Source: Devosia sp. ZB163
GTDB taxonomy: Bacteria; Pseudomonadota; Alphaproteobacteria; Rhizobiales; Devosiaceae
DNA: 64,000 nt
Direction: 5' to 3'
NCBI RefSeq assembly: GCF_028613635.1
Contig: NZ_JAQRMY010000001.1
Location: forward strand, 663,778 to 727,777
Positions 40,776 to 44,224 of the stretch are shown here, piece after piece. The notes beneath the pieces are model-generated. The model searched no databases. It was not told the DNA's origin and worked only from the letters and a program-made list of their open reading frames with translations. How positions within the stretch are numbered: the first letter of the stretch is position 1; each line of letters opens with the position of its first letter. The translations under genes were made by a program, and so were the position numbers.

Positions 40776-41879
40776 ATGCAATTTTCGATCGCATTTCATT
40801 CGAGCCTTTACGTGTTTCACCAATCCGCCAGCAATGTCGACGACCTGATGCGCAAGGTGCTGACGCGGCTCTTGTCCGGCAACAAAGCCAACTATCGGGT
40901 CAATGCGACTAGGAAGCCCGGCAGCACAGAGGTGTTCGGGGCTCTTCTGGAGTTGACCGACCCGTTGGCGCGGCTGGGGCGGTCAACGACGCGCGCGCGT
41001 GTGTTCAGTCCACTCGGCGAACTGCTTTGGTACCTGTCGGGCAGTAACGCACTCGATCATATTGCCTACTACCTGGACGAGTACGGCAAGTACTCCGATG
41101 ACAACAAGACCCTGAATGGAGCATATGGCCATCGCATTTTTGGCGAAGCGCGGCTGAGAGGGGACCCCGATCCCGGCGACCAATGGCAGCGAGTAATCGA
41201 CACCTTGCGCGAGCGCGAAGGATCGCGGAACGCCGTCCTTCAGATCTACGCGAACGAAGACGGCGCCAAAAAAAGCAAAGACATCCCCTGTACGTGCACG
41301 CTGCATTTTGTGATCCGCAGGGGGCAACTACACCTTCACGTTCACATGCGGTCGAACGACGCGTACTGGGGCATGCCCCATGATGTGTTCGCGTTTTCGA
41401 TGCTACAGGAGATAGCGGCCCGGGAGCTAGGAAAGGAACTGGGCACATACCAGCATTCGGTCGCGAGCCTGCACCTTTACGACGACACCGAGGACTTCGA
41501 CGCTCGAAGTCGGGCGCAGAAGTATCTCGATGAAGGTCTGCACGACACCGTTCCAATGCCGCAGATGCCCCCTGGCGATCCGTGGCCGTCGATCAGGAGG
41601 GTGCTGGAAGCAGAGCGCGAAATACGGAACGGCAACGTAGAGTTCCAAACGCCAGTCGACCTGGACCCATACTGGCGCGACCTGGTCACGCTACTCCGCG
41701 CCTACGGTGCTAGCAAACACCACGCCGGTCCCTCGGAGGAGGAACTGGTACGGCAGTTGGTTCATGACGGCTACCGGCTATACGTGCTCGACAAGATCGC
41801 CAGACGCCGACCCAAGACCCCACCTGCGATGGGGGATATTTTCACCACGGAAGAGATCGATGCGCCACGGAATCCATAG
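40776..41879 (+). CDS. Thymidylate-synthase homologue with (d)CMP-type active site
   Basis: A 367-residue thymidylate-synthase-fold enzyme. Aligned landmarks are 'RVNATRKPGSTEVFGALLEL' (41-60), 'NGAYGHRI' (114-121), the nucleophile Cys172 in 'IPCTCTLHF', the phosphate/Asp motif 'RSNDAYWGMPHD' (192-203) and 'SLHLYDD' (231-237). In dUMP-specific synthases the residue after 'LPF' is Asn (N177 in E. coli). Here it is Asp203 ('GMPHD'), as in T4 dCMP hydroxymethylase and the CMP hydroxymethylase MilA. It therefore probably hydroxymethylates (or methylates) a cytidylate. It overlaps the next gene by 20 bases. AT-richer start region, weak ribosome binding site. Confidence 0.85.
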   Translation: MQFSIAFHSSLYVFHQSASNVDDLMRKVLTRLLSGNKANYRVNATRKPGSTEVFGALLELTDPLARLGRSTTRARVFSPLGELLWYLSGSNALDHIAYYLDEYGKYSDDNKTLNGAYGHRIFGEARLRGDPDPGDQWQRVIDTLREREGSRNAVLQIYANEDGAKKSKDIPCTCTLHFVIRRGQLHLHVHMRSNDAYWGMPHDVFAFSMLQEIAARELGKELGTYQHSVASLHLYDDTEDFDARSRAQKYLDEGLHDTVPMPQMPPGDPWPSIRRVLEAEREIRNGNVEFQTPVDLDPYWRDLVTLLRAYGASKHHAGPSEEELVRQLVHDGYRLYVLDKIARRRPKTPPAMGDIFTTEEIDAPRNP

Positions 41880-42798
41880 GAAGCGTCATGCCGCACTGAT
41901 GGCGGGTCTTGCAACCTACGAGGCGGCCAACGGCGCCCTACTCGGTATCGTCAACCCAGCGGCGAGAAGCACGCTAGTCGAGCAGATGGTGTCGAGCCTG
42001 CGGCGCATCGAGTATGTGCGGGCCTTCCGTCAGCGTCCCGTCATGTCACCATCGCGCGTTGACCCGCATTCCGATCTGTTCGATCCGCTCAAGGGCGCCT
42101 ACTACCTCGACAGTAGGGGTGAGCGGGACGAGGCGGTGTGGATAGCCTTCATCGGTACCCACTTCGGAAAACACTCGGAGGATGGATGGAAGCTGGCGGC
42201 CAACGTGATGGGCTCCTTCGGCCGAGGGCCAGTATGGACGCTGGCGGAGTACAGCGCCAGGACCGCCGCTTTCGAGGCGATGCTTGCCTCGCATCAAGCC
42301 GACCTGGACGCCAAAGCCATATCCGGTCGCTTCTCCAATCACCGACAATATCAAAGCAAGGGTGCCGGCGTGATTTCGAACGTGTTTGCGACGTTCCACG
42401 AATGGCTAACCGGCCCTGGCGGCATAAATGCAAGAGTGCGGAGGGTTCACAACGCGGTAGGCCAACAGCCCACTGCCGTATTCGCGCAGCTCTACCGGTC
42501 AATGAAGGACGTCTACGGTTTCGGTCGCCTGGGGAAGTTCGACTTCCTGACCATGATAGGCAAACTGGACTTGGCGCCAATCGAGGCGGACAGCGTGCAT
42601 TTCGTCGGTGCGACTGGACCACTGTCCGGCGCGAAGCTGCTACTTTTCGGTGCAACCAACGCGCAAGGCACCCCTAAGCAGATCGAAAGGATCGTTGACG
42701 ACCTGGACAACTATCTCCAGGTCGGCAAGCAAGTGCTCGAGGACAGCCTTTGCAACTGGCAGAAAAGCCCTACCAACTTCGTCTATTTTAGGGGCTAG
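41860..42798 (+). CDS. Alpha-glutamyl/putrescinyl-thymine pyrophosphorylase clade 3-like protein
   Basis: A 312-residue protein resembling the aGPT-Pplase clade 3 family, predicted by comparative genomics to attach amino acids or polyamines to pyrophosphorylated hydroxymethyl bases. Motifs that prompted the call are 'AFIGTHFGKHSEDGW' (97-110), 'FHEWLTGPGGI' (179-189), 'YGFGRLGKFDFLTMIGKL' (219-236), 'GATGPLSGAKLLLFG' (250-264) and the C-terminal 'VLEDSLCNWQKSP' (292-304). The helical, glycosylase-like core fits. ATG 41860 has GGAAGAG ahead and lies inside the preceding gene, so the two are coupled. The call is from memory of the family; no biochemical function is proven for this clade. Confidence 0.65.
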   Translation: MRHGIHRKRHAALMAGLATYEAANGALLGIVNPAARSTLVEQMVSSLRRIEYVRAFRQRPVMSPSRVDPHSDLFDPLKGAYYLDSRGERDEAVWIAFIGTHFGKHSEDGWKLAANVMGSFGRGPVWTLAEYSARTAAFEAMLASHQADLDAKAISGRFSNHRQYQSKGAGVISNVFATFHEWLTGPGGINARVRRVHNAVGQQPTAVFAQLYRSMKDVYGFGRLGKFDFLTMIGKLDLAPIEADSVHFVGATGPLSGAKLLLFGATNAQGTPKQIERIVDDLDNYLQVGKQVLEDSLCNWQKSPTNFVYFRG

Positions 42799-43904
42799 TC
42801 GATAAGGTCAGGTACGTGGGCGTCCTCATTCCAACGATAGCGCCGCTTGAGGAAATTTAGCTTGCTGTGATCCACGGCGCGGGCGCGTTGTAGCTGACCC
42901 ACAATGATACCCGGTGTGACGTCAGCCTCCCGGGCAATCGCGATAATTGCCTTAGGCCGGATTGCCAGATCATTCAGCTCCTCCCGCAGGTCCGCCGGGA
43001 AAAGAATATCCTGAGCGAACTCGTTGGCTTCGCGCTCCTGCTTCTCGACATCGGTGCCCATTACCTGCCCGCCGTCACCATCGATGTGGTTCTTGCCGTG
43101 CAACACGACATGGCCCGCCTCGTGGAAGAACGTGAACCAGAAATGATCCTCCGCCATGTGGCGGAAGCTGAGCAGAATCACCGGATTCCCGCCTCGGTCG
43201 AACCATGATGCGCCACTAGCGCGACATCCGTCAGGCGTGCGTGCTGTTGCCACGGCCACGCCAACTGCACGACAGGCTTCGATGAGACGCGGCAGAAACA
43301 CCGACGGGCGTTTGAAGGCCGAGAGCTTCTTCAAGCCCGGAAGCATCTTCTCGAAGGCGGTGCGGTCAAATTTAGGAAGGTCGCGGTCAGCAATAGCCAA
43401 CTCGCCGGCGCGCAGCCAGACTAGCGTCGCCATACCATCGGATTCCAGCGTCACGGACGTACGGAAAGCAACTGCGCCGACACCCGACGAATAACGCTGA
43501 CCCCATTCCTGCAGTGTCGTGCATCCGAAGAAACCAAGGATTTCGTGCTTGAGCCTATCCGGAGCTCGGATGCCCTTGGGCAGCCAGCCATACTTGCGCA
43601 TTGACGACGTCGGCATGGATTCGAGCCAAGAGGCCTCTGAATCCTGTGAGTTCTCATCAAGACGAGCTCTGTCCACAACATAGGCTGCGTCGCGGGCCAG
43701 CCAGAACCGGGCGGTCGAACCCAGATTGGCGGCGAGTACTGCGGCATCGCCTTCTGTCACGCGACGCTGTCCCGTGATCAGGCTGTCGAAGTCGCCCTCG
43801 GACAGGCCCATAGCGTCCGCTAGCTCGACAGCGTCAATTTCCTTGCTGCTCATGAGGCGAACGATGGTTTCACCCGGCGGTGACGACCAGTTGGGTTCAG
43901 TCAT
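42795..43904 (-). CDS. XRE-type HTH/ImmA-IrrE metallopeptidase fusion (HigA-like antitoxin)
   Basis: 369 residues. An N-terminal helix-turn-helix of the HigA type ('ELADAMGLSEGDFDSLITGQRRVTE', given in part, residues ~27-51) is joined to an ImmA/IrrE zinc peptidase: His261-Glu262-Ala-Gly-His265 in 'TFFHEAGHVVLHG', and a third-ligand Glu in 'KQEREANEFAQDILFP'. Such fusions act as antitoxins or phage/stress-sensing regulators that cleave a partner. It is encoded right after a HigB-like toxin gene (ATGA overlap 43901-43904) and runs head-on into the modification genes, its TAG sharing the palindrome CTAG (42795-42798) with theirs. Confidence 0.88.
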   Translation of the reverse strand: MTEPNWSSPPGETIVRLMSSKEIDAVELADAMGLSEGDFDSLITGQRRVTEGDAAVLAANLGSTARFWLARDAAYVVDRARLDENSQDSEASWLESMPTSSMRKYGWLPKGIRAPDRLKHEILGFFGCTTLQEWGQRYSSGVGAVAFRTSVTLESDGMATLVWLRAGELAIADRDLPKFDRTAFEKMLPGLKKLSAFKRPSVFLPRLIEACRAVGVAVATARTPDGCRASGASWFDRGGNPVILLSFRHMAEDHFWFTFFHEAGHVVLHGKNHIDGDGGQVMGTDVEKQEREANEFAQDILFPADLREELNDLAIRPKAIIAIAREADVTPGIIVGQLQRARAVDHSKLNFLKRRYRWNEDAHVPDLID

Positions 43905-44224
43905 GCCAGCACCTTCTCTTTGTCGAGAATTCGCAAAAGCTTGACGCGGTGAACATCGCCCCAATTGCTCCTGTCGATCACGCCGGTACCGATCGGCTCC
44001 GCGACCAATACTGCCGAATCTCCCAACGGATAGTTTAATACGAGCTTGCCGTCCGCCTGTCCAAGCACGGGCACCTCCGGCACTTCACCAAGAAGAATGG
44101 CGTTCCGCATATCGGCGACCAGACTCCGAAAGGAGCGCGCCAGGCTATCTCCGAGCATCTTCTGAGCCGCCTTTGCGTCATTGGTTGCCGATCGAATTTC
44201 CGGCGTCGCGTAGGTTAGTTCCAA
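43901..44224 (-). CDS. HigB/RelE-like toxin
   Basis: A 107-residue protein that fits a RelE/HigB-fold ribosome-dependent mRNase. An N-terminal helix pair ('IRSATNDAKAAQKMLGDSLARSF', given in part) is followed by strands 'GKLVLNYPLGDSAVLVAEPIG' (given in part) and a C-terminal 'VHRVKLLRILDKEKVLA', which parallels the 'V..V.I..IEDYH' end of HigB-type toxins linked to ImmA-bearing antitoxins. Catalytic residues are not clear-cut. It is first in a two-gene operon with the XRE-ImmA protein. Confidence 0.65.
   Translation of the reverse strand: MELTYATPEIRSATNDAKAAQKMLGDSLARSFRSLVADMRNAILLGEVPEVPVLGQADGKLVLNYPLGDSAVLVAEPIGTGVIDRSNWGDVHRVKLLRILDKEKVLA

Follow-up and report, generated by a model that had tools for sequence, protein, structure and literature searches.

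A four-gene cassette beside lepA

We analysed a 64,000-nucleotide stretch of the Devosia sp. ZB163 chromosome (the window; assembly GCF_028613635.1, contig NZ_JAQRMY010000001.1, positions 663,778 to 727,777 of the forward strand), in which a 3.4 kb cassette of four genes adjoins lepA. Two of the genes encode predicted nucleotide-modifying enzymes, including one of the thymidylate synthase (TS) fold, and the other two, on the opposite strand, form a toxin-antitoxin (TA)-like pair.

40776..41879, plus strand: P0001, TS-fold enzyme, predicted deoxycytidine monophosphate (dCMP) 5-hydroxymethylase (PF00303, relation to MilA, conserved C172/E82/R151/S193/D203)
41860..42798, plus strand: P0002, protein of aGPT-Pplase clade 3 resembling amino acid:DNA transferases (ADDTs), predicted to carry out a second step on a modified pyrimidine (PF18746, PF18724, hhalign)
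42795..43904, minus strand: P0003, HigA-type helix-turn-helix (HTH) domain fused to an ImmA/IrrE (M78) metallopeptidase (PF06114, 39.5 bits; PD-Lambda-2_B)
43901..44224, minus strand: P0004, small protein with a TTG start and, apparently, a HigB/RelE fold (predicted structure and Foldseek)

The open reading frames (ORFs) of P0001 and P0002 are both present and overlap by 20 nt, in agreement with the original prediction, which described them as a stand-alone two-gene module with no nuclease beside it. No nuclease is found among the four genes, which fits that description. The module is larger than predicted, as the next two genes (42795–44224, minus strand) show roughly the same constancy as the TS/aGPT-Pplase pair. 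P0003 overlaps P0002 by 4 nt in a tail-to-tail arrangement, and P0004 overlaps P0003 by 4 nt. P0001 has 367 residues when read from the ATG at 40776, and an alternative GTG start at 40812 agrees better with where related genes begin. P0002 has 312 residues.

Conservation of the four-gene unit

We compared 80 loci, 75 from a search of a species-genome collection with P0002 and five from the own and related genomes. One locus (L001) is the window itself, and two others (L004 from the same-genus genome G011 and L027 from Devosia sp. 66-14) are the same place. By profile scans, the TS, P0002, P0003 and P0004 types are found together in 69 of the 80 loci (68 of 79 distinct ones). The TS and P0002 types occur together in 74/80, which indicates that their pairing is not due to chance and bears out the co-occurrence expected from the original prediction. 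A P0003-type gene lies beside the P0002-type gene in 77 of the 79 loci having the latter, and 75 of the 80 loci contain a P0004 homologue. The two P0002 loci without the P0003 type are L080 (Candidatus Tokpelaia) and L068, which runs out at the end of its contig. The P0004 type is missing from L080 and from four loci at contig ends (L040, L042, L044 and L068). Five P0002 loci have no TS gene: L070, L074 and L075, each of which starts at a contig end; L063, in which another gene, c4, is shortened; and L005 (identical to L171, G065:C1), a decaying cassette in which an IS21-like transposase gene, recognised by eye, replaces the front of the TS gene, or the greater part of it, and the P0003-type gene lies in pieces.

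The P0002 and P0003 types are convergent, tail-to-tail, in 77/77 loci and are separated by no more than 30 nt in 70 of them; this count drops L001 as a duplicate of the window and keeps both L004 and L027. The host genes flanking the cassette vary between loci, and the order and orientation of the four genes are constant. Cassette loci are found in Alphaproteobacteria, other Proteobacteria, Acidobacteria, Bacteroidetes genera, Anaerolineales, Dehalococcoidia and Verrucomicrobiales. Over the 64 loci (63 distinct) in which all four proteins have normal length, their distances are correlated pair by pair, with r of 0.854–0.917. We note that these loci were gathered through P0002 similarity, that several are near relatives, and that linkage alone raises r, so the correlations show co-inheritance rather than function.

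The additional gene c4 is present in 13/80 loci (L035, L049, L053, L057, L059-L061, L063, L065, L067, L068, L072 and L073), including 11 of the 69 four-type loci, and also in L104, L105, L107, L108 and L128. It encodes a protein of ~270 residues with the strongly conserved motifs LGLNPSN, LVLNG and GYNHNIQSS, and lies between or beside the TS and aGPT-Pplase genes. Two members of the family gave no Pfam match above the cut-off, and no credible PDB relative was found by sequence. A by-eye resemblance to uracil-DNA glycosylases was not upheld when c4 was compared with 25 such proteins (hhalign probability 0.2). In nine loci (L047, L050, L052, L053, L057, L058, L061, L065 and L066; cluster c6), a DUF4031 gene (PF13223, assigned on L050) is found near the TS gene.

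P0001 and its substrate-determining residues

P0001 matches PF00303 with 82.9 bits (cut-off 24.3) and is a TS homologue, as originally predicted. The TS fold is accompanied by the cysteine nucleophile and the catalytic glutamate: C172 and E82 are present in 61/61 rows of an alignment of P0001 with 60 of the 75 TS-type ORFs, eight ORFs having been dropped for length and seven as near relatives. The best solved relative is MilA, a cytidine monophosphate (CMP) 5-hydroxymethylase (E 1.6e-50; best ordinary TS, E 3.6e-15). With MilA as the closest relative, we infer that P0001 probably hydroxymethylates its substrate rather than methylating it.

According to the MilA study (PMC5175136), Asp186 of MilA is a mark of cytosine substrates, and the preference of MilA for CMP is due to Lys133 and Ala176, in place of which TS and T4 dCMP hydroxymethylase carry Arg and Ser. 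D203 of P0001 aligns with Asp186 and is invariant (61/61 rows), in line with the (d)CMP-type active site that had been proposed. The equivalents of Lys133 and Ala176 are R151 (60/61 rows) and S193 (61/61 rows). The combination of Arg, Ser and Asp points to a dCMP-type enzyme despite MilA being the nearest structure, and the substrate of P0001 is predicted to be dCMP, not CMP. Two other identities were rejected: a CMP enzyme of the MilA/BcmA type, as Arg and Ser replace Lys133 and Ala176, and the housekeeping ThyA, as a separate ThyA (423.5 bits) is encoded elsewhere in the genome.

P0002 and the amino acid:DNA transferases

Thymidine hypermodification in the Pseudomonas phages M6 and PaMx11 involves a TS-like hydroxymethylase, the 5-hydroxymethyl-2′-deoxyuridine DNA kinase HMUDK and the ADDT glycinyltransferase PUGT. 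PaMx11 gp46 (PDB 8z2m) is such a PUGT and acts on 5-phosphomethyl-2′-deoxyuridine (5-PmdU). P0002 matches PF18746 (aGPT-Pplase3) with 289.5 bits (cut-off 25) and PF18724 (ADDT) with 237.6 bits, so that its earlier assignment to aGPT-Pplase clade 3 holds. The AlphaFold2 model of P0002 has a mean predicted local distance difference test (pLDDT) score of 95.5. When the P0002 family profile was aligned by hhalign with 11 phage ADDTs including PaMx11 gp46, the probability was 90.8 (E 1.2e-6); two unrelated family profiles used as controls gave 0.4 and 0.7, and a single M6 sequence gave 3.3. The helical domain of HMUDK (seven phage sequences) was rejected as the closest relative, its probability of 11.4 being weaker than that of the ADDTs. 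The P0002 family and the phage ADDTs also have in common a signature, E..LC.W, close to the C terminus. In a Foldseek search of viral models (BFVD), the sole match at E <= 0.001 was an annotated ADDT (E 3.5e-4). In the open-licence PubMed Central literature that we searched, no function is reported for aGPT-Pplase clade 3.

A divergent aGPT-Pplase3 homologue is found as an orphan, without TS or HigA-ImmA, in a genome of the same phylum (L087 in G220, 1387-2295). By eye, it adjoins a serine-hydrolase-like gene and has Glu at the position of D228 in P0002.

P0003 and P0004

P0003 combines a HigA-type HTH domain with the HExxH...E signature of a metallopeptidase. Its best PADLOC match is PD-Lambda-2_B (88.8 bits, E 1.1e-25), and its family profile matches HigA structures (E 1.1e-10) and the CapP structure (E 5.3e-4). 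The metallopeptidase residues H261, E262 and H265 of HExxH, and E290, are present in 61/61 rows of an alignment of P0003 with 60 of 79 related ORFs. Sequence searches with P0004 in Pfam, PADLOC, PHROG and NCBIfam found nothing at E <= 1. Its AlphaFold2 model (pLDDT 96.7) looks like a RelE/ParE/HigB fold: ranks 1–15 of the Foldseek search are all toxins of this fold, the best with E 0.025 and none with E <= 0.001, and the probability reaches 0.99 for YoeB/ParE and the template modelling (TM) score 0.72 for the Proteus vulgaris HigB target. Only G25, D38, W88 and R93 are nearly invariant in an alignment of P0004 with 46 of 61 homologues. A related pair is part of PD-lambda-2, a validated system in which, as described in PMC9519451, the HTH (Xre)-peptidase protein B is toxic and the HigB-like protein A neutralises it.

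In the Rhodobacteraceae loci L017-L025, an inverted repeat, TCAACC...GGTTGA, was seen by eye just upstream of the TS start and is exact in five of the nine loci. This repeat might act as an operator or fold into an RNA hairpin.

Similar pairs beside defence genes

A P0003-type gene is found at E 1e-15 or better in 26 of 299 phylum genomes, the own genome included. We opened 17 of 25 such places, a set that leaves aside the own genome and the P0002-carrying G385. A P0004-type gene is also present in 12 of the 17, and neither the P0001 nor the P0002 type occurs within five ORFs on either side in any of them. Pfam annotation covered nine proteins from four of the opened places. In one (L237), the pair is surrounded by two HsdM, an HsdS and an HsdR of type I restriction-modification. 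In another (L241), an OLD-TOPRIM ATPase and a UvrD helicase lie beside the pair, and two ORFs on the other side belong to the same BLAST cluster as HsdM of L237. A T5orf172/MUG113 protein is encoded near the pair in L230, and HipA in L232.

Plasmids provided 16 further P0003 matches without P0002, six of which were opened. In L123, the P0003-type gene has E2, TIR and nucleotide cyclase genes as neighbours, with no P0004 type detected. The pairs of L124 and L125 lie beside multiubiquitin and ThiF genes, and L122 contains a P-loop NTPase and an S subunit. No defence gene was recognised in L126, and L127, the sixth locus, is unannotated. It looks as if defence systems of different kinds reuse the HigB/HigA-ImmA pair for control or as a guard.

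Distribution and chromosomal setting

Counting the own genome each time, the P0002 family is present in 5 of 151 relatives, 4 of 398 phylum genomes and 1 of 385 class genomes, the last being the own genome only. Pfam-family searches of the relatives and the phylum found eight genomes, two of which (G011 and G481) repeat loci among the 80. The P0003 type is present in seven of the eight, and in six the TS spans the full profile length; the remaining genome contains the orphan L087. P0002 is carried by 8 of 72,556 plasmid records, and P0003 abuts it in 8/8. A viral collection yielded 23 loci, of which 20 have the whole cassette and three are truncated where the contig or locus ends. Some of these loci are redundant: L083 and L084 duplicate the DNA of L024 and L045, L104 and L105 are nearly identical, and L111 and L112 share a contig; L086 likewise duplicates the DNA of L019. 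No tblastn match to P0002 at E 1e-3 was found among 50,697 phage records. An ordinary phage gene was rejected as the identity of P0002 on this ground and because the loci of the viral collection carry the cassette, and the chromosomal, non-phage setting proposed earlier is upheld.

The module has a guanine-plus-cytosine (GC) content of 59.1%, and the mean of 606 sliding windows of the same size is 65.8%, with one of them equally low. On its left lies P0005 (40056-40655, 199 residues), which has no Pfam, PADLOC or NCBIfam match. P0005 homologues are found in nine other members of the genus. In four of these, P0005 and lepA lie on the same contig, 2.3–3.8 kb apart and without the cassette, and P0005 forms the left border of the interval; in the remaining five, they are on separate contigs. 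The interval encodes DarT and DarG (216 and 408 bits) in G001 (L164, G001:C13, 803-2586), an 804-residue AAA/OLD-like ATPase in G017 (L165), and an HNH protein in G018 (L167). In G002, the sole ORF tested was a TetR regulator gene. From these contents, the interval between P0005 and lepA looks like a defence hotspot, and the cassette occupies it in the window. The cassette also looks mobile, given its low GC content, patchy occurrence and hotspot location. Shedu-like genes (cluster c9) are found near the cassette in L017, L018, L021 and L022, which are Rhodobacteraceae loci with the gene just upstream of TS, and in L074. The assignment was tested on the L018 member (SduA, SduA_C, 6.7e-23).

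Interpretation of the cassette

Gene content, conservation, homology, substrate-type residues, the apparently mobile hotspot setting and the occurrence of similar pairs beside other defence genes were computed here. From them we infer enzyme activity, a DNA substrate, control of P0001 and P0002 by P0003, and a role in defence. Our preferred reading, held tentatively and at slightly under even chances, is a horizontally moving four-gene cassette against phages or mobile elements, with protease/TA control and an effector arm that hypermodifies deoxycytidine. P0001 would hydroxymethylate dCMP using methylene-tetrahydrofolate, and the hydroxymethylated deoxycytidine, most probably as part of DNA, would be the substrate of P0002, which may build a bulkier base from it or process it otherwise. 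A modified pyrimidine as the predicted product was already part of the original prediction, and our results support it. P0003 and P0004 would be a sensing and control pair that restrains the enzymes or the whole response and that infection would trip. It is possible, though rather unlikely, that the cassette represents a new class of immunity, in which a tripped protease switch unleashes the dCMP hydroxymethylase together with an aGPT-Pplase clade 3 enzyme that needs no kinase, so that phage cytosine, in DNA or in the precursor pool, becomes an unusable hypermodified base. The armour chemistry of the phages would then be turned against the phages themselves.

Several observations weigh against the defence reading. 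Foldseek gave no significant match of P0002 in the PDB: PaMx11 gp46 ranks fourth (E 1.0, probability 0.72, TM 0.41/0.44), behind three membrane proteins with TM of 0.12–0.17. K150, invariant in the phage ADDTs (PaMx11 gp46 numbering), aligns with D228, which is Asp in 69/69 rows of an alignment of P0002 with 68 of 81 ORFs (the duplicate pair L004/L027 included). The invariant R93, R94 and R97 of the 11 phage ADDTs have no aligned counterpart in the P0002 family. P0002 thus lacks the residues of a PUGT-type amino acid:DNA transferase, and the Lys-to-Asp change together with the unaligned Arg cluster suggests that its chemistry may differ from that of the phage enzymes. By sequence, P0002 is a member of the aGPT-Pplase/ADDT superfamily for which the PUGT reaction should not be assumed. 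A search of the own genome for the HMUDK_hel kinase domain, restricted to the family PF18723, gave no match (the positive control, phage M6, was detected, but the tool gives a warning that its own 14 controls were silent). No kinase was seen among the recurrent neighbour clusters c3-c10, the range inspected, with c11-c16 (four loci each) outside it. The phage series of hydroxymethylase, kinase and transferase is therefore incomplete here, with its activation step missing. No PADLOC model matched P0001 or P0002, and P0003-type genes also occur without these two. No operator common to both promoters of a locus was found in 65 loci (mean best match 9.1 for own and 8.7 for mismatched pairs), and inverted repeats showed no general excess (4/65 and 1/65 loci at p<=0.05, with 3.25 expected). 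The reading is weakest at the activation step, which is missing, and at the TS promoter, where nothing points to binding by P0003; control could instead run by proteolysis or via the tail-to-tail transcripts.

Within the cassette, a toxin-like arm can be recognised only in the HigB/HigA-ImmA pair, and the near-constant company of P0003-type genes with P0002 (77/79) would suit a guarded toxin, in which the product of P0001 and P0002, modified DNA or a modified nucleotide, keeps the pair harmless and the destruction or dilution of this product by a phage leads to killing or arrest of the cell. PD-lambda-2, with its toxic HTH-peptidase and neutralising HigB-like partner (PMC9519451), offers a parallel. 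We consider this reading unlikely, as similar pairs adjoin type I restriction-modification and multiubiquitin/ThiF genes, a pattern that fits a general regulator or guard better. A self-marking or protective modification of host or element DNA, with the pair merely stabilising the island, seems improbable to the same extent. The modification of phage DNA by TS-like and ADDT-like enzymes, the lack of a nuclease among the four genes, and the copies on plasmids and in the viral collection are in its favour. The missing phage-type kinase argues against it, as does modification at the dCMP level, which would be global and leave no sequence marking. Moreover, a tail-to-tail pair whose distances track those of the enzymes exceeds the needs of a loose stabiliser.

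MilA, as the closest solved relative of P0001, would also allow a route outside DNA, to a modified cytosine nucleotide serving as a signal or antimetabolite. We regard this as very unlikely, since in place of the residues behind the CMP preference nearly all rows carry the dCMP-type Arg and all rows the dCMP-type Ser, and 5-PmdU is the substrate of the characterised protein most closely related to P0002. Least probable in our view is that the two gene pairs are unrelated neighbours that move together in islands. The lack of a common operator and the absence of the P0001 and P0002 types around P0003-type genes in all 17 opened places agree with it, yet the four genes keep one order and orientation across several phyla while their flanks vary.

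Phage base hypermodification is known as armour. If the defence reading is correct, nucleotide hypermodification would be an immune weapon. It would also give aGPT-Pplase clade 3 a function, and restriction, ubiquitin-like, OLD/UvrD and nucleotide-modifying defences would have one type of HigB/HigA-ImmA pair in common.

Comparison with known systems

As in phage thymidine hypermodification, a TS-fold gene in the cassette lies beside a gene of the ADDT superfamily. The cassette differs from the phage pathway by its cytosine-type active site, the lack of HMUDK_hel in the genome, the Lys-to-Asp change and the TA-like pair. MilA and T4 dCMP hydroxymethylase have the TS fold, the Cys nucleophile and the cytosine-type Asp in common with P0001; Arg151 and Ser193 of P0001 are those of dCMP/dUMP enzymes, whereas MilA has Lys and Ala. 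The cassette resembles PD-lambda-2 in that a HigB-like gene overlaps an HTH-ImmA/IrrE gene in both. Of the three components of PD-lambda-2 (HigB-like A, Xre-peptidase B and P4-antitoxin-like C), B has a match in the cassette and A a likeness by fold only, but none of the four genes matches C, and two nucleotide-modifying enzymes are found tail-to-tail instead.

CapH and CapP, which control the cyclic oligonucleotide-based antiphage signalling system (CBASS), are an HTH protein and an ImmA-type protease encoded beside a defence effector. The cassette likewise pairs an HTH domain and an ImmA-type protease with a putative effector, in keeping with the CapP match of P0003, but in P0003 the two are fused, the partner is HigB-like and the effector is a different one. 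DefensePredictor (2026; PMC13092281) describes a validated TS-containing system and an aGPT-Pplase system predicted, though not tested there, to act in defence. These candidates belong to the same enzyme families, and the text consulted does not mention a HigA/ImmA partner; the aGPT-Pplase system may or may not be identical to this cassette. No description of a unit of TS, aGPT-Pplase and HigA-ImmA was found in the open-licence PubMed Central literature that we searched. In the cassette, known enzyme families are combined with a control pair of a known type in a way that is new and conserved.

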